Shown here piece after piece: positions 582 through 6,462 of a stretch of DNA of 6,462 nt. Made by a program: the position numbers and the translations under genes. This DNA is from Actinomycetes bacterium. GTDB lineage: Bacteria > Actinomycetota > Thermoleophilia > BMS3ABIN01. Below the pieces are notes generated by a model. It did no database searches, was not told the DNA's origin, and worked only from the letters and a program-made list of their open reading frames with translations. How positions within the stretch are numbered: position 1 is the first letter of the stretch; each line of letters opens with the position of its first letter. The stretch is taken from positions 1 to 6,462 of the forward strand of contig JAJYLK010000070.1 in the NCBI GenBank assembly GCA_021787775.1. The letters run 5' to 3'.

Positions 582-673
582 AACGAAACGCAGGCTGGTT
601 GAAGCTTGTGACGATCTAAGCATCGTGCTGCCGCCAGCAATCCTGTGAGTGCAATAACTGCCTGGGCAGCCAC

Positions 674-682
674 TGCTATAAT
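674..682 (+). promoter_or_regulatory. Extended -10 promoter of mnmE, leaderless type
   Basis: TGCTATAAT is a perfect TATAAT hexamer (677-682) with the TGn extension (674-676). Counting the last hexamer base as -7 puts +1 at 689-690, on the A of the mnmE ATG at 690. No Shine-Dalgarno sequence precedes that ATG, so the expected transcript is leaderless. I see no TTGACA-like -35 at 16-18 bp spacing, which extended -10 promoters can tolerate. The box also lies inside any reading frame extended upstream to GTG 645, which argues against that longer start. Confidence 0.75.
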
Positions 683-689
683 AGCGTTT

Positions 690-2066
690 ATGGGAGAGGC
701 CCCGACAATTGCGGCGATCTCGACTGCCCTGGGGGCCGGCGCCATCGGCATCGTCCGCCTGTCCGGGACGGCCGCGATCAACATCTGCGACCAGGTATTT
801 CGCGGCAAGCTGCCTCTGGCAGAAGCCGGCTCGCACACCATCCACCTGGGAACGATATTTGACACGACGTCGGGTGAGACCGTGGACGAGGTACTGGTCA
901 GTGTCATGAAGGCGCCGGCAACTTATACACGCGAAGACATCGTGGAAGTCAACTGCCACGGGAGCGCGGTGGCCCAGCAAAAAGTACTTTCCCTCTTCCT
1001 GGACCATGGCGCACAGCTCGCCACACCCGGCGAATTCACCAGGCGCGCCTTCTTCAACGGCCGCATCGACCTGGCTCAGGCGGAAAGTGTCGCGCGCATC
1101 GTCTCGGCCAGGACGGAAGCCGGTCTGAAGATGGCCGTGGGCCAACTCGAAGGGGTGCTCTCCAGGGAGATCGCCTCGATCCGCAGCTCCACTCTGGGAG
1201 TCCTGGCCGTTGTCGAAGCCGGCATCGATTTTTCCGATGAGGATGTCGACGAGATCGATGCCTCCGATGCTGGCAAGCAGCTAATGCGGCTCCGGGGTCG
1301 AATCGATGAACTGATCGAGACGGCGCTTACGGGCCGCGTGCTTAGCGAGGGCGTACGGACCGCGATCGTCGGCAAGCCCAATGTGGGCAAATCGAGCCTG
1401 CTGAATTCCCTGGTGATGCGGGAGCGGGCCATTGTCACAGAGACCCCCGGCACCACACGCGATACGATCGAGGAAATCATAAGTGTGGGCGGCATTCCTT
1501 TAAAGCTGACCGATACTGCCGGACTCAGGCCCGCGAACGACGAAGTCGAGAAACTCGGCGTCGAGCGCAGCCGTCAGGCAATCCGGGAAGCGGACCTGAT
1601 CCTCTGCATGTTCGACGGCAGCCAGCACGAGGACGACCATGACCGGGCGCTGATGACGTCGGTTCCCGCCGACAGAACGATATATGTGATCAACAAGTGC
1701 GATCTGTTCCGCGGCCGCTCTCCTGTTTTTAACCAGGGACTATTACCATCGCGCCCCGTCGTGATCTCGGCCATGACCCGCCAGGGACTGCGTATCCTCA
1801 AGGAGAAAGTGGCTGACAAGGTGCTGGGCAGATCTTTCCCCTCACCGCAAAGCCCGGTTGTGACACAGGAGCGGCACCGCCGTTTGCTGGCTGACGCCTC
1901 GGAAGCAATCGGCCGCGCGGAGCAGGGTCTGCGGGTGCGATTGGGTGAAGAGCTCATCGCCGAAGAGCTGCGTCTGGCCCTGAGATCGCTGGGTGAGATT
2001 ACCGGCGAGGAGATCATGGAAGACCTCCTGGACGTGATTTTCCAGGAATTCTGCATCGGAAAATAG
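690..2066 (+). CDS. mnmE: tRNA uridine-5-carboxymethylaminomethyl modification GTPase MnmE
   Basis: MnmE (TrmE) is a cytoplasmic, dimerising GTPase. With MnmG it adds an aminomethyl or carboxymethylaminomethyl group to C5 of wobble U34 in tRNAs reading NNA/NNG codons, using a tetrahydrofolate-derived carbon. The 458-residue product has the usual family length. The N-terminal folate-binding domain opens with TIAAISTALGAGAIGIVRLSG. The inserted G domain shows G1 GKPNVGKSS (228-236), G2 GTTRD (254-258), G3 DTAG (275-278) and G4 NKCD (335-338). The helical domain flanks it, and the protein ends in the diagnostic FCIGK with catalytic Cys455. All key residues are present. I chose ATG 690 because it matches the family N-terminus and lies where transcription from the extended -10 should begin. 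GTG 645 would add a 15-residue hydrophobic leader overlapping the promoter. A 12-nt gap separates it from the MnmG-like gene, suggesting an operon. Confidence 0.97.
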   Translation: MGEAPTIAAISTALGAGAIGIVRLSGTAAINICDQVFRGKLPLAEAGSHTIHLGTIFDTTSGETVDEVLVSVMKAPATYTREDIVEVNCHGSAVAQQKVLSLFLDHGAQLATPGEFTRRAFFNGRIDLAQAESVARIVSARTEAGLKMAVGQLEGVLSREIASIRSSTLGVLAVVEAGIDFSDEDVDEIDASDAGKQLMRLRGRIDELIETALTGRVLSEGVRTAIVGKPNVGKSSLLNSLVMRERAIVTETPGTTRDTIEEIISVGGIPLKLTDTAGLRPANDEVEKLGVERSRQAIREADLILCMFDGSQHEDDHDRALMTSVPADRTIYVINKCDLFRGRSPVFNQGLLPSRPVVISAMTRQGLRILKEKVADKVLGRSFPSPQSPVVTQERHRRLLADASEAIGRAEQGLRVRLGEELIAEELRLALRSLGEITGEEIMEDLLDVIFQEFCIGK

Positions 2067-2078
2067 CTTTCGCAAACG

Positions 2079-3170
2079 ATGAGTCCTTCCGGGAACAACC
2101 CTGAAAGATATGACGTGTTAGTCGTCGGTGGCGGGCCGGCCGGCTGCGAAGCCGCTGTTGCCGCCGCAATTCTTGGCGCCAGGACGCTGTGCCTCACCAT
2201 CAATCTGGACAGCGTAGCCCTTCATCCCGCCGGTCCGGTGCTTGCGGAAGGAAAAGACGATCCGCGCTCTGCCTTGCTACACGAACTTCGCGAGATCGGC
2301 GGGATCCTGCCTGAAATTCTCATGCACGAGGGGACAACGACTGGTGTCCCTGAAAAGGGAAGGGTGCTGATAGACCGGCGCCGCCTCAGCCTGGCATACA
2401 AATCGCGGCTTGAGCACACGGAAGGCGTTGAGCTGAGGCAGGGGCTGGTCGTCTCGCTGGAACCGCATGATGGTTACTGGTTGGCCGGGACAAAGCTGGG
2501 GGAGACATTCAGCGCCAACTTCGTCATCGTCGCGGTGGGGACTTATTTGAACGGGACCGTAACCGAGGCGGGCATCTCGGTCCCCGGAGGCCGCCATGGT
2601 GAGATTCCATCAAATGGCCTCGCCGCCTGCCTTGCCGCGCTCGGCATAGATCTGGAACCAGCCAATGCAACCTGCTTTGCCCGCGTCGCCGCAGGGAGCG
2701 CCGGCGGCGCCGGCCTGCCACCCGACGGCGAGGCCCTGCGCGAACTCTATGCTCTGGGCATCGACCTCAAGGGCAGCCGGGCGCACGCGCTCGAGGTCAT
2801 CCGAGGCTCCGCGGGGTACAACAAGCCGCCCGCAGCGATAGCCGCACCCGGAAGTCTCAAGCATGCCTGGATCACCCGCTCTCAGTTCACCGTCAGGCAC
2901 CTGATTTTATCGGCGGCTCAGGTGGACAGGGATTTGCAGTCGCGCTCGCTCCCCGGGCTCTTTTTTGCCGGGCGGGCCGCCGGGAGCTGCAACTATTCCG
3001 AAGCGGCGGCCCTGGGCTTGCTTGCCGGCGACAGCGCCGCTGTCAGAGCGAAAAATCTGGCAGGTGGTAGGTTAATAAAAGATTACAAATTTGTTAATAA
3101 GCTCGTCGCTGCAGTAGCCGAACAGCAGGTGCGACCCGTAACTATCAGAAAACCGCCGCCCGGATGTTAG
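2079..3170 (+). CDS. Short MnmG-like FAD-binding protein, probable non-canonical paralogue
   Basis: This 363-residue protein clearly belongs to the GidA/MnmG flavoprotein superfamily. It has a dinucleotide-binding motif, VVGGGPAGCEAA (15-26), a middle block VIVAVGTYLNG that aligns with VVLACGTFMRG of the adjacent MnmG, a following PGGRHGEIPS resembling PAGRMGEPPA, and a C-terminal FAD block LFFAGRAAGSCNYSEAAALG (294-313). It differs sharply from MnmG. The CNPAIGG motif is replaced by HPAGPVLAEG, the RYCPS cysteine segment is absent, and the C-terminal helical domain (over 200 residues) is missing. TrmFO-specific cysteine motifs are not seen either. The last 33 or so residues (from about 330) match nothing familiar and use AT-rich codons. 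The start is ATG 2079, 12 nt after mnmE, with no good Shine-Dalgarno. Its place between mnmE and mnmG suggests a link to tRNA U34 modification, but the reaction is unknown. The frame is intact with GC-rich codons, so a recent pseudogene is unlikely. Confidence 0.85.
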   Translation: MSPSGNNPERYDVLVVGGGPAGCEAAVAAAILGARTLCLTINLDSVALHPAGPVLAEGKDDPRSALLHELREIGGILPEILMHEGTTTGVPEKGRVLIDRRRLSLAYKSRLEHTEGVELRQGLVVSLEPHDGYWLAGTKLGETFSANFVIVAVGTYLNGTVTEAGISVPGGRHGEIPSNGLAACLAALGIDLEPANATCFARVAAGSAGGAGLPPDGEALRELYALGIDLKGSRAHALEVIRGSAGYNKPPAAIAAPGSLKHAWITRSQFTVRHLILSAAQVDRDLQSRSLPGLFFAGRAAGSCNYSEAAALGLLAGDSAAVRAKNLAGGRLIKDYKFVNKLVAAVAEQQVRPVTIRKPPPGC

Positions 3171-3183
3171 CACAAATTAATAA
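3072..3183 (+). repeat. AT-rich island with three TTAATAA copies and a 10-bp palindrome
   Basis: TTAATAA occurs at 3072-3078, 3094-3100 and 3177-3183. The first two copies sit inside GTTAATAA octamers exactly 22 bp apart, about two helical turns. Between them lies the perfect palindrome ACAAATTTGT (3085-3094). ACAAATT recurs at 3173-3179, again running into TTAATAA. The stretch is strikingly AT-rich for this window and spans the 3' end of the MnmG-like gene and the leader of mnmG. It could be an operator or part of an internal promoter, but I found no convincing -35/-10 pair. The function is inferred only. Confidence 0.4.
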
Positions 3184-3189
3184 ATTATC

Positions 3190-3197
3190 AAGGAAAG
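3190..3197 (+). promoter_or_regulatory. Shine-Dalgarno site favouring TTG 3206 as mnmG start
   Basis: AAGGAAAG ends 8 nt before TTG 3206, which is in the mnmG frame. The ATG at 3164 is preceded by GC-rich sequence without a Shine-Dalgarno. Starting at 3206 gives a product beginning MPGFDVIVVGGGHAG, close to the usual short MnmG N-terminus, and leaves the AT-rich 3171-3205 stretch as a spacer. Confidence 0.5.
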
Positions 3198-3205
3198 ACT
3201 GCAGT

Positions 3206-5062
3206 TTGCCCGGTTTCGACGTCATCGTGGTCGGTGGCGGGCACGCCGGCTGCGAAGCTGCCCTGGCAGCGGCTCGGATGGGCTGCTCCACCCTTTTGCT
3301 TACTCTTTCCCTGGAGAAGATTGCCTTGATGCCCTGCAACCCCGCGATCGGTGGAGTGGGCAAAGGCCAGCTGACGCGGGAAATAGACGCACTTGGGGGC
3401 GAACAGGGGCGCAACACTGACCGCTCTTTTATTCAGATGAAGATGCTGAATACTGGTAAAGGCCGCGCCGTTCAGGCGTTGCGAGCCCAAGCAGACAAGA
3501 AGCTCTACGAGGACAACATGAAAAGAGCTCTCGCCCAGGAACAAAACCTGCAAATCCTCGAAGGCACTGCTGCAGCTCTTAATGTTTCACGTGAAACAAT
3601 TGAGGGCCTCACTCTGACCGATGGCAGCTTCATTCCTGCAAGATCAGTTGTATTGGCCTGCGGCACCTTCATGCGCGGGAAGATAGTTGTCGGCGACCAC
3701 ATCTTCCCAGCCGGGAGAATGGGAGAACCGCCGGCCATTGAGCTTTCAGCGAGCCTGGCTCATGCTGGGCTGGAACTGGCACGATTCCAGTCCGCCACAC
3801 CTCCACGCATCGACGCGCGCTCAATAAATCCTGACAAGATGTCAGTCGAATCCGGGGACCATGATCCTGAGCTGTTTTCCATCTCCAGCAAACCCGATAA
3901 CCGGCGGCAGATCCCCTGCTATTTAACGAACACCACGGCGAAAACCCACGAAGTCGTCCGCAATCATCTTCATCTTTCTCCGATCAAGAACGGTTCTGTC
4001 AGCAGCAAGGGTCCGCGGTACTGCCCTTCAATTGACCGCAAGGTTATCAATTTTCCCGACCGCGACCATCATCCGGTCTTTGTCGAACCAGAGGGCCGGG
4101 ATACTTCAGAGATGTATCTTCAGGGCCTGACTACCAGCCTCCCGGTATGGATACAAGAAAAAGTGATCCGTACTGTACCCGGCTTGGAGAACTCCCGGCT
4201 CATGCGGCCCGGCTATGCCGTCGAATACGACTACGTCATTCCTGACCAGCTTACTCTTGCTTTAGAGACCAAAGCAGTAAAGCACCTCTTCCTGGCCGGC
4301 CAGATCAATGGCACCTCGGGCTACGAAGAGGCGGCGGCGCAAGGGCTTGTTGCCGGAATTAACGCGGCTCTGGGCGTCCAGGGCCATGAACCCATGATTC
4401 TCAGGCGAGATGAGGCTTACATCGGCGTTCTTATCGACGACCTGGTGACCAAGGGCGTTGACGAGCCCTATCGCATGTTCACTTCACGCGCGGAATACCG
4501 CCTGTTACTAAGACACGACAATGCTCACAGCCGGCTCGCCGAAACTGGAAACCGGCTCGGCCTGGTCCCCGATGCCACCCTGGCTGAGATCTTCAGCCAT
4601 ACGCAGCGAGTTCGTGCCTTGCTGGCGAATTTGAAAAAAACTCGCCTGCAACCCTCAGGGCAGCTGAACGATGTGCTGAAATCCCGCGGCTCAGCCACTA
4701 TTAGTGAGGCCCAAGCCGCTTGGCAACTGATAAAGCGGCCCGAACTTCGCCTCGAAGACCTGAAGCCGTTTATCGCCCTCCTTCCAGCACAGGCAGCCGA
4801 AATCATTAAAAGCGCCGAAATCGAGATCAAATATTCCGGTTATATCGCTCGACAACAAGAAGAGATAAACCGTTGCGCCAGCCTTGAAAATACCCTGATC
4901 CCTACTGATTTCAGTTACCCCGATCTGGAAGGCATCACGATCGAGGCGCGCGAAAAACTATCCCGCATCCGGCCGTCATCGCTAGGTCAGGCTTCCCGAA
5001 TCGCGGGCGTTTCTCCCGCTGATATCTCAGTCCTGTCTATTTTTCTGCGGGCGGCCCGTTGA
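3206..5062 (+). CDS. mnmG: tRNA uridine-5-carboxymethylaminomethyl modification enzyme MnmG
   Basis: MnmG (GidA) is the FAD/NADH-dependent partner of MnmE in U34 modification of tRNA. Numbering from TTG 3206 (618 residues), it shows GGGHAGCEAA at 10-19, CNPAIGG with Cys44, RYCPS with the conserved Cys273, the second FAD motif AGQINGTSGYEEAAAQG near 364-380, and YRMFTSRAEYRLLLR. The C-terminal tRNA/MnmE-binding domain ends with EKLSRIRPSSLGQASRIAGVSP in pieces typical of the family. All hallmarks are present and the length is normal. An alternative ATG at 3164 gives 632 residues and overlaps the upstream gene by 7 nt, which would allow translational coupling. I prefer 3206 because of its Shine-Dalgarno and the usual N-terminus, but this is not settled. 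The stop TGA overlaps the TTG start of rsmG. The coding sequence also contains a parS site at 3583-3598, read as NVSRET. Confidence 0.95.
   Translation: MPGFDVIVVGGGHAGCEAALAAARMGCSTLLLTLSLEKIALMPCNPAIGGVGKGQLTREIDALGGEQGRNTDRSFIQMKMLNTGKGRAVQALRAQADKKLYEDNMKRALAQEQNLQILEGTAAALNVSRETIEGLTLTDGSFIPARSVVLACGTFMRGKIVVGDHIFPAGRMGEPPAIELSASLAHAGLELARFQSATPPRIDARSINPDKMSVESGDHDPELFSISSKPDNRRQIPCYLTNTTAKTHEVVRNHLHLSPIKNGSVSSKGPRYCPSIDRKVINFPDRDHHPVFVEPEGRDTSEMYLQGLTTSLPVWIQEKVIRTVPGLENSRLMRPGYAVEYDYVIPDQLTLALETKAVKHLFLAGQINGTSGYEEAAAQGLVAGINAALGVQGHEPMILRRDEAYIGVLIDDLVTKGVDEPYRMFTSRAEYRLLLRHDNAHSRLAETGNRLGLVPDATLAEIFSHTQRVRALLANLKKTRLQPSGQLNDVLKSRGSATISEAQAAWQLIKRPELRLEDLKPFIALLPAQAAEIIKSAEIEIKYSGYIARQQEEINRCASLENTLIPTDFSYPDLEGITIEAREKLSRIRPSSLGQASRIAGVSPADISVLSIFLRAAR
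3583..3598. promoter_or_regulatory. parS: parS centromere site inside mnmG (ParB/Spo0J binding)
   Basis: TGTTTCACGTGAAACA is a perfect 16-bp palindrome and an exact match to the conserved bacterial parS consensus. ParB/Spo0J dimers load here and spread as sliding clamps, and ParA drives segregation of the resulting complex. In the mnmG frame it encodes NVSRET. It lies about 2.25 kb upstream of the parA start, consistent with the origin-proximal clustering of parS sites. I saw no second match in the window. Confidence 0.93.
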
Positions 5063-5754
5063 ACTGGCAGAGCCGGGCTCAATCCCGATACGACCTTGAC
5101 CGGGTGCAGATGGAACGTCTGGTGACGCTTCAAAGTCTTCTCTCTGAACCCGAAAACCGCGGTCTGACCTCGGTGCCGCCGGACCGGATCGGCAAAATCC
5201 ACATACTTGACAGCCTGAATTTACTGGATTTTCCTCAAGTCACACATGCGCACTCATGCGTAGATGTTGGCAGCGGCGGCGGACTTCCGGGCTTACCGTT
5301 GTCAATTGCCAGGCCCGGTCTGAATATGACGCTGATCGAATCAAACAAGCGTAAAAGTGCATTCCTCTCCCGTGCCGTTTCCATTCTTGGCTTGTCGAAC
5401 GTCCGCGTGCTGGCAGTCAGGGCTGAAGACGCTGCGCGTACGGAACTTCGGGACTCTTTCGATCTTGCGCTGGCACGCGCAGTGGGGCCGCTGCCAGTAG
5501 TCCTTGAATTTACATTGCCGCTACTGAGAACGGGTGGTAATTCCCTGCTACAGCGCGGTTCCCGGGAGCCGGGCGATCTGGAAGCCGCTGAAATCTCCTC
5601 ATCACTCCTTGGAGGCGAACTCAAACGAGTCAAGAAAGTCAGCCCATATCCCGGCTCCATAAATTTACACATCTGGGTGGTGGCCAAGAAAACATCCACA
5701 CCTAAGCGCTTCCCCCGCCGGGTCGGTGTAGCCAAAAAACGCCCCCTGGCCTGA
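5059..5754 (+). CDS. rsmG: 16S rRNA (guanine-527-N7)-methyltransferase RsmG
   Basis: RsmG (GidB) uses S-adenosylmethionine to make m7G at position 527 of 16S rRNA in the 530 loop; its loss causes low-level streptomycin resistance in several bacteria. The 231-residue product shows IHILDSL, the SAM-binding motif I DVGSGGGLPGLPL (69-81), the acidic ribose-binding motif LIESNKRK (92-99), RAEDA, the ARAVGPL segment, and the basic C-terminal signature RFPRRVGVAKKRPL. The family motif just upstream of the LDSL block is slightly divergent (NRGLTSV where NLTA is usual). The start is TTG 5059, whose TTGA overlaps the mnmG stop by 4 nt. No Shine-Dalgarno is obvious, so translation is probably coupled to mnmG. 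ATG 5110 is a later alternative but would trim the N-terminal helix. Confidence 0.95.
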   Translation: MNWQSRAQSRYDLDRVQMERLVTLQSLLSEPENRGLTSVPPDRIGKIHILDSLNLLDFPQVTHAHSCVDVGSGGGLPGLPLSIARPGLNMTLIESNKRKSAFLSRAVSILGLSNVRVLAVRAEDAARTELRDSFDLALARAVGPLPVVLEFTLPLLRTGGNSLLQRGSREPGDLEAAEISSSLLGGELKRVKKVSPYPGSINLHIWVVAKKTSTPKRFPRRVGVAKKRPLA

Positions 5755-5852: not shown

Positions 5853-6462
5853 GTGCAGGCAAATTCTTCTTTTCAGGCAAGAGCTGGTTTGGGCAAGACC
5901 TACGCAGTCGCAAATCAAAAGGGCGGCGTGGGCAAGACCACAACCTGTATTAACACCGCTGTATGCCTGGCCGAAGCGGGCGCCACAGTCCTCCTCATCG
6001 ACCTCGATCCTCAGAGTAATGCCACACATGGCTTCGGCGTTCATGATGAGTCCGGCCCGACTGTTTATGATGTTCTGCTCAACGGCGCCCGCATCGAATC
6101 CGCCATCGTCGGCACCGAAATACCCCATTTTTTCCTGGTGCCCTCGACTCCTCACCTGGCGGGTGCTGAGGTCGAGCTTCCCGCCCGGGATAACCGGGAG
6201 TTCATTTTGGCGCGCAGCCTGCAGAGCATAGCTCCCGATTTCGATTACCTGTTTATCGATTGTCCCCCGTCGTTGAGCCTGTTGACTCTCAATGGCCTGG
6301 TAGCGGCCGACCGCCTGATCATTCCGGTCCAATGCGAATATTATGCTCTCGAAGGCCTCGGCCAGCTCCTGTCCACCGTCGAGGCGGTGCGCATCAACTT
6401 TAATCCCAAACTGGAAATCGCCGGCCTCTTGATGACCATGTTCGATCCGCGCACCAGACTTT
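5853..6462 (+). CDS. parA: Chromosome-partitioning ATPase ParA/Soj, N-terminal part (cut by window edge)
   Basis: ParA is a deviant Walker ATPase that binds nucleoid DNA as an ATP dimer and moves ParB-parS complexes apart. The visible 203 residues show the deviant Walker A motif NQKGGVGKTTT (21-31) with signature Lys23 and Lys28, the Walker A' region LIDLDPQSN (48-56), the Walker B strand YLFIDCPPS (132-140) and the helix VQCEYYALEGLGQLL, all typical of chromosomal ParA/Soj. It runs off the window in frame, so roughly the last fifth to quarter is missing. GTG 5853 is chosen because an in-frame TAA lies at 5841 and the predicted transcription start falls on this codon. TTG 5889 would give MGKTYAVANQKGGVGKTT, a closer match to common Soj N-termini, but has only a weak GAG upstream. 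parB is expected just downstream. The parS site in mnmG is its likely cis partner. Confidence 0.95.
   Translation, partial: MQANSSFQARAGLGKTYAVANQKGGVGKTTTCINTAVCLAEAGATVLLIDLDPQSNATHGFGVHDESGPTVYDVLLNGARIESAIVGTEIPHFFLVPSTPHLAGAEVELPARDNREFILARSLQSIAPDFDYLFIDCPPSLSLLTLNGLVAADRLIIPVQCEYYALEGLGQLLSTVEAVRINFNPKLEIAGLLMTMFDPRTRL

Follow-up and report, generated by a model that had tools for sequence, protein, structure and literature searches.

A shortened MnmG-like flavoprotein between mnmE and mnmG: a candidate reduced member of an old MnmG paralog line in Actinomycetota

The stretch of DNA considered here, termed the window, comprises 6,462 nucleotides (nt) of contig JAJYLK010000070.1 from an Actinomycetes bacterium of the class Thermoleophilia (assembly GCA_021787775.1). 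Between the genes for MnmE, a transfer RNA (tRNA) U34 GTPase, and MnmG lies a third gene, denoted X, whose product is a shortened relative of MnmG. Comparison with other genomes indicates that X belongs, in reduced form, to an ancient line of MnmG paralogs, denoted MnmG2 (a label coined in this analysis), found in tandem between mnmE and mnmG over much of the phylum. Judged by alignment, most of the segments with which E. coli MnmG contacts MnmE and tRNA, and those that carry its catalytic cysteines, are gone from X. The human mitochondrial counterparts of MnmEG are MTO1 and GTPBP3.

Sequence and domain content of X

X is an intact open reading frame (ORF) of 363 codons on the forward strand, with an ATG start and a TAG stop. 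A preliminary description, made from the letters alone, had reported an intact MnmG-like gene with a flavin adenine dinucleotide (FAD) fold at this place, and the Pfam GIDA model bears this out with a match of 129 bits. The NCBIfam MnmG equivalog model, TIGR00136, gives X 111 bits, below its curated cut-off of 524.85, and two TrmFO models give 41.1 bits against a cut-off of 262 and 20 bits against 428.65. With scores so far below the MnmG and TrmFO cut-offs, X falls outside these characterised flavoprotein families.

The FAD domain is nearly complete, as 167 of 170 E. coli MnmG residues can be aligned to X, which has the FAD-binding fold of MnmG. The FAD contacts of E. coli MnmG were followed in the alignment at what we take to be residues 125, 180 and 370. 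The predicted structure is an MnmG-type fold with both FAD motifs, and X probably binds FAD, as sequence and fold suggest. The site of Cys47 is A51 in X, Cys277 is deleted together with the entire 273-287 segment (motif 1), and L84-A91 of insertion domain 1 is deleted as well. The replacement of CNPAIGG and the disappearance of the RYCPS cysteine segment, both noted in the preliminary description, are thus borne out. With both cysteines missing, X appears to have kept the fold and lost what canonical MnmG chemistry requires. The C-terminal domain had been described as absent; most of it is indeed gone (37 of 232 helical-domain residues align, and neither PF13932 nor PF21680 matches X at E 0.001), but its start survives, R427..T430.R432 of MnmG corresponding to R352..T355.R357 of X. 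A short tail follows, its last residues being Gly-Cys. The features of X are as follows.

2079..3170, forward strand: X, putative shortened MnmG2-lineage flavoprotein of 363 amino acids (aa), from ORF, Pfam, family search, alignment and tree
2127..2144, forward strand: FAD dinucleotide-binding loop GGGPAG, X residues 17-22 (MnmG G13-G18)
2223..2267, forward strand: HPAGPVLAEGKDDPR, X residues 49-63, which replaces MnmG M45-K56 (CNPAIGGxGK) and is without Cys; its R63 is at the K56R site common to MnmG2
2583..2603, forward strand: PGGRHGE, X residues 169-175, with G170 and R172 in every row of both X subfamilies
2742..2744, forward strand: X E222, corresponding to E. coli MnmG E306 and kept by nearly all X and most MnmG rows
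2970..3008, forward strand: C-terminal FAD motif GRAAGSCNYSEAA, X residues 298-310, with C304 in place of MnmG T375
3132..3167, forward strand: RPVTIRKPPPGC, X residues 352-363, the R427..T430.R432 remnant and the C-terminal Cys conserved in type A (X-A)

Relatives of X and the MnmG2 line

Among the best 120 of 7995 candidate proteins, 26 are close relatives of X (P0002-P0027), one of them identical to it, and E values fall off from 1.5e-62 to 2.5e-29 between the X family and full-length MnmG. Those with organism names among the matches listed come from metagenome-assembled genomes (MAGs) of Thermoleophilia or Actinobacteria. Of the genome loci, which number at least 11, nine of the 11 listed (L001-L009) hold X with mnmE before and mnmG after, and at some of them the contig stops within mnmG. 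The other two, L010 and L011, represent MnmG or a weak match.

A sample of 399 genomes of the class, searched with an X/MnmG profile at an E cut-off of 1e-12, gave matches in 38. X is present in 36 of these, as type A in 18 and as a divergent type B (X-B) in 18, and the other two (G132 and G088) have a diverged MnmG with no X seen, the mnmG of G088 being partial and running off a short contig. Immediately upstream of X is mnmE at all 18 type A loci and at 16 of the 18 type B loci, the remaining two hitting the contig end. The mnmE-X-mnmG order reported for the window thus recurs wherever the contig permits. MnmG itself is rare in the class sample, and X accompanies it. With the X/MnmG profile as the sole model, 361 of the 399 genomes gave no match. 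MnmA scores above its cut-off in all 26 class genomes tested, and since these include seven of seven without an MnmG profile match, 2-thiolation without the 5-carboxymethylaminomethyl (cmnm5) group may be common there.

Cys47 is kept in none of the 33 X-A rows and none of the 23 X-B rows. X-B (for example L079-L092) has SGCACA at the FAD loop and a Cys at site 25 in 22 of 23 rows, and long variable inserts replace its insertion domain 2. An AlphaFold model of the X-B protein P0132 reached a predicted local distance difference test score (pLDDT) of 72.6 and a predicted template modelling score (pTM) of 0.78. In one genome (G084, L083:2822-4531), mnmE lies in three ORFs on a 4.6-Mb contig, perhaps through sequencing error.

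Beyond the class, a sample of 396 genomes of the phylum, searched at an E cut-off of 1e-20, gave matches in 71. X carriers of that class account for 11 of these, and the loci of the other 60 were read. A second MnmG-type gene follows mnmE or precedes mnmG at 54 of these 60 loci, so that 65 of the 71 genomes carry a second copy. Contig breaks often fall within the tandem copies, the relatives including MAGs. The second copy reaches the contig end at 16 of the 54 loci, and the 14 with no mnmG visible beyond were assigned by K56R, E298Q or a lost Cys47; at L135, the mnmG beyond the second copy is a 201-aa piece only. The second copies range in length from ~630 to ~300 aa, and among the 52 that are readable, 25 keep Cys47 and 27 have lost it. 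At locus L128, the space between mnmE and mnmG is taken by a 223-aa remnant resembling MnmG (4604-5275), possibly a sign of ongoing loss.

Site patterns of full-length MnmG2 were taken from 74 rows, namely 72 of the 83 clusters P0218-P0300 (at least 580 aa) with L104 and L115. C47, N48, C277, K283, R427 and R432 are each present in all 74. K56R is found in all 74 and in none of 37 canonical MnmGs, and E298Q likewise separates all full-length MnmG2 from these 37. At sites that are invariant or nearly so in the 37 MnmGs, S315T occurs in 93% and R275K in 61 of the 74, and site 310 is His in 72 of 74 as against Gln or Asn in MnmG. E558 and R564, two of four residues whose joint change weakens MnmE binding according to the available text of PMC4027165, are not kept. 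To judge from these residues, full-length MnmG2 is a separate constrained line. Since its members retain both cysteines, cysteine loss appears to be a late state of the line and not its founding feature. Where they are named in databases, the full-length genes (loci L103-L162) are annotated as plain MnmG. X shares with this line its slot, flanked on the same strand by mnmE and mnmG, and K56R, which occurs in all 30 X-A rows and is variable in X-B. The marks P49S and E298Q are not shared, as X has P53 at site 49 and site 298 is variable.

The main tree was built from 70 chosen rows (18 X, 17 MnmG2, 22 MnmG1 and 13 others) and limited to the N-terminal core, avoiding tracts shared by both copies. 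X and MnmG2 stand on the same side of a branch with support of 96/94, long branches being present, and the MnmG1 proteins from these genomes cluster with each other (100/99) within canonical MnmG. Placing X as a recent copy of its own lineage's mnmG costs 57.6 log units (approximately unbiased (AU) test, p 6e-5), and placing it on the side of all MnmG1 costs 32.5 (p 0.013); both placements were rejected, with long branches present and with p-values weakened because the groups were named after a first tree. In 26% of bootstrap trees, X-A and X-B share one side of a branch to the exclusion of the remaining short MnmG2 copies. Two of those copies, L119 and L122, adjoin X-B with weak support and long branches, so that X may or may not be a single clade. 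A second origin of short forms lies within the full-length group (L103, L116, L118, L106 and L107; 100/98), so truncation occurred at least twice.

In a quick tree of 83 rows (XA_P0003, P0013, P0025, P0122, P0126 and XB_L094 left out), the MnmG proteins of the X class fall into two groups matching X-A and X-B. P0143, tried as an X-B member, proved to be a truncated MnmG. Distances of X and MnmG co-vary across 15 type B genomes (r 0.84, 0 of 5000 permutations), for which common descent suffices.

Comparison of mnmG2 with mnmG at nine loci revealed near-identical tracts at two, L104 (450 nt, 99.6%) and L115 (494 nt, 100%, with a further 134 nt of 95% identity at the 5' end). The long tracts run from the end of insertion domain 2 through the last FAD-domain segment into the first part of the helical domain, and lie in the following genes.

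L104: 3725-5491 and 1841-3718
L115: 2749-4509 and 4570-6606

Short identical stretches surround an N run at L117. No shared tract, or short matches of 78-89% only, were found at L108, L105, L113, L109 and L103, and two overlapping ORFs make the comparison ambiguous at L135. The tracts may be read as gene conversion that keeps the halves alike, in one clade only, or as an error of short-read MAG assembly.

The fold, the lost parts of the chemistry and the slot are as the preliminary description had them; the phylum-wide MnmG2 series was not foreseen there.

Possible roles of X beside MnmG

X is under purifying selection. The pairwise ratio of nonsynonymous to synonymous substitution rates (dN/dS) of X is 0.40 (window and L001), 0.24 (L013 and L014) and 0.35 (L018 and L022); mnmE gives 0.14, 0.20 and 0.14 for the same pairs, and mnmG, for the window and L001 only, gives 0.14. 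Decay confined to this genome, considered in the preliminary description, is contradicted by these ratios and by the many relatives. A functionless, slowly decaying duplicate would fit the faster evolution of X than of mnmE, the graded truncation across lineages and the L128 remnant. It is very improbable nonetheless, as dN/dS is well under 1, motifs are fixed over a deep tree and, in the genomes examined, nothing but contig ends and N runs interrupts the X frame. An interruption of X in G009, tried as a case of decay, is caused by a stretch of N. Internal stops in five hits (G069, G042, G090, G054 and G030) occur at loci that each have an open X ORF, and probably reflect matches extending past the X frame.

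The reading preferred here, which stands just short of an even chance, is that X and MnmG2 are the partner half of an MnmG1:MnmG2 heterodimer whose idle half has been reduced. It draws on the E. coli alpha2-beta2 MnmEG complex, in which, in the available text of PMC12397908, one MnmG subunit holds MnmE and FAD and the other is disordered at 255-292 and 554-629 and holds no FAD. Small-angle X-ray scattering finds one tRNA per MnmG dimer (PMC4027165, as far as its available text goes). X is without counterparts of both disordered regions, and of more besides. A tandem duplication would have given each half of the MnmG dimer its own gene, and the idle half would, in some lineages, have been trimmed to an FAD core that still dimerises. 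MnmG1 would perform the chemistry with MnmE and tRNA, and X would contribute a dimer surface and an FAD-binding core; MnmE could not occupy X, and the complex would be locked in an alpha2-beta-beta' (half-of-sites) state.

A wider proposal is put forward more tentatively and falls somewhat short of probable. Across much of the phylum, MnmG would be an MnmG1:MnmG2 heterodimer from an old tandem duplication, its second half having been shortened on at least two independent occasions. In the lineage of the window this half would be an FAD-binding core that recognises neither MnmE nor tRNA and has gained a pair of cysteines, one on the flavin side and one C-terminal, and the half-of-sites asymmetry would be encoded in the genome.

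Several observations weigh against a heterodimer with a passive half. In each of the three pairs compared, the evolution of X outpaces that of mnmE. MnmG occurs without a second copy in 5 of the 71 phylum genomes and 2 of the 38 class genomes, the phylum loci being L124-L127 and L133 (the contigs of L125 and L127 stop 1.6-2.2 kb upstream of mnmG). MnmG2 need not have started as a passive half, given that its full-length form retains both cysteines and most residues that contact MnmE. E. coli also forms an alpha4-beta2 complex in which each MnmG subunit carries MnmE and FAD (PMC12397908), and its free MnmG subunit shows no FAD, whereas X retains FAD motifs. X-A also has its own set of conserved cysteines, for which a passive half would have no use. 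A retained dimer interface in X is hypothetical, and its pairing with MnmG is putative.

The chief rival, though rather unlikely, is that X is an active redox flavoprotein. C304 and the C-terminal Cys of X-A would form a dithiol relay serving MnmG/MnmE or another substrate, for example by keeping MnmG/MnmE cysteines or flavin reduced. Of 33 X-A proteins, 29 carry both cysteines and four carry neither; among 19 loci that overlap these 33, 14 have both and five neither. A C-terminal Cys arising as a by-product of the overlapping mnmG ATG was rejected, because the terminal Gly codon is GGC or GGT in 11 of the 14 Cys-ending loci (GGA in three, the window included). R101, R120, Q121, G170, R172 and E222, which lie beyond the dinucleotide loops, show little or no variation in either X-A or X-B and would also suit an active enzyme. 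Conversely, X-B as a rule has neither cysteine (Cys in 2 of 23 and 1 of 23 at the two columns) yet still occupies the slot. The losses are concentrated in a small number of clades, so that few events underlie the co-occurrence, and the tail is unstructured in the X model (pLDDT <50 at residues 358-363).

X and MnmG2 could also be homodimers that have taken on another tRNA, position or product independently of MnmG1. The sharp constraint on full-length MnmG2, with both cysteines and the fixed switches K56R and E298Q, would suit such neofunctionalisation. It is improbable for two reasons: X adjoins mnmG wherever the contig permits, and most parts that bind tRNA and MnmE in the available texts of PMC12397908 and PMC4027165 are missing from X. 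Substitution by X for TrmFO (5-methyluridine at position 54, m5U54) or MnmC(o) is scarcely credible, its sole support being that neither TrmFO nor the MnmC FAD domain scored above cut-off in any of 19 class genomes (G132, which is without X, among them).

The window and known systems

The gene order in the window is a thioredoxin-like gene on the reverse strand, mnmE, X, mnmG, rsmG and a parA-like gene. The genes flanking X are as follows.

645..2066, forward strand: mnmE, tRNA U34 GTPase with the C-terminal end FCIGK (NCBIfam PRK05291, 395 bits against a cut-off of 380)
3164..5062, forward strand: canonical mnmG, 632 aa, CNPAIGG and RYCPS intact (TIGR00136, 806 bits against a cut-off of 525)
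5059..5754, forward strand: rsmG (gidB) (Pfam GidB, E 1e-36)
5853..6461, forward strand: presumably a parA-like ATPase, named from its sequence, with its 3' end beyond the window; it served only as a gene-order probe

Twelve nt separate the end of mnmE (2066) from the start of X (2079), and the 3' end of X overlaps the start of mnmG (3164) by 7 nt. On the reverse strand, positions 3-569 carry the 5' portion of a gene that encodes a thioredoxin-like domain and is divergent from mnmE; it matches TsoB, DsbH and thioredoxin models, all well below cut-off. Megablast found no plasmid match for the whole window.

The preliminary description took X to be undescribed, and the literature searched, in which subscription journals are thinly covered, likewise holds no description of a second, duplicated or unusual MnmG. 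The lone match for 'mnmG2', PMC3617221, was taken as an allele name.

Among known proteins, MnmG (GidA; TIGR00136; 2ZXI, 3CP8, 3CES and 9HIP) differs from X in having C47, C277, motif 1, L84-A91 and a whole helical domain, of which 37 of 232 residues align, and X scores far below the cut-off of its model. The GidA-related protein 2CUL of Thermus thermophilus HB8 (232 aa) gives 70 bits against 201 for MnmG, and X is not closer to it than to MnmG. TrmFO belongs to the same wider FAD superfamily and has an alignable C-terminal FAD motif, but X reaches only 41 and 20 bits against its cut-offs of 262 and 429. Full-length MnmG2 of Actinomycetota MAGs (for example P0218-P0288) is like X in slot, side of the tree and K56R, and differs in keeping both cysteines and the C-terminal domain. 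Most members have Ser at site 49, where X has Pro, and all have E298Q, which X is without. These full-length genes are hidden in databases as second MnmG copies.

The closest likeness in arrangement is to the E. coli alpha2-beta2 MnmEG complex, in which, in the available text of PMC12397908, one MnmG subunit is without ordered motif 1, C-terminal arm and MnmE. Why MnmG engages MnmE on one subunit or two is an open question there, and one subunit for tRNA with the other for MnmE is an open possibility. Both E. coli subunits come from one gene and an alpha4-beta2 form exists, whereas here the second half would have a gene of its own. If this is true, MnmG halves would exist as separate genes, one progressively stripped, and each half could be altered alone.
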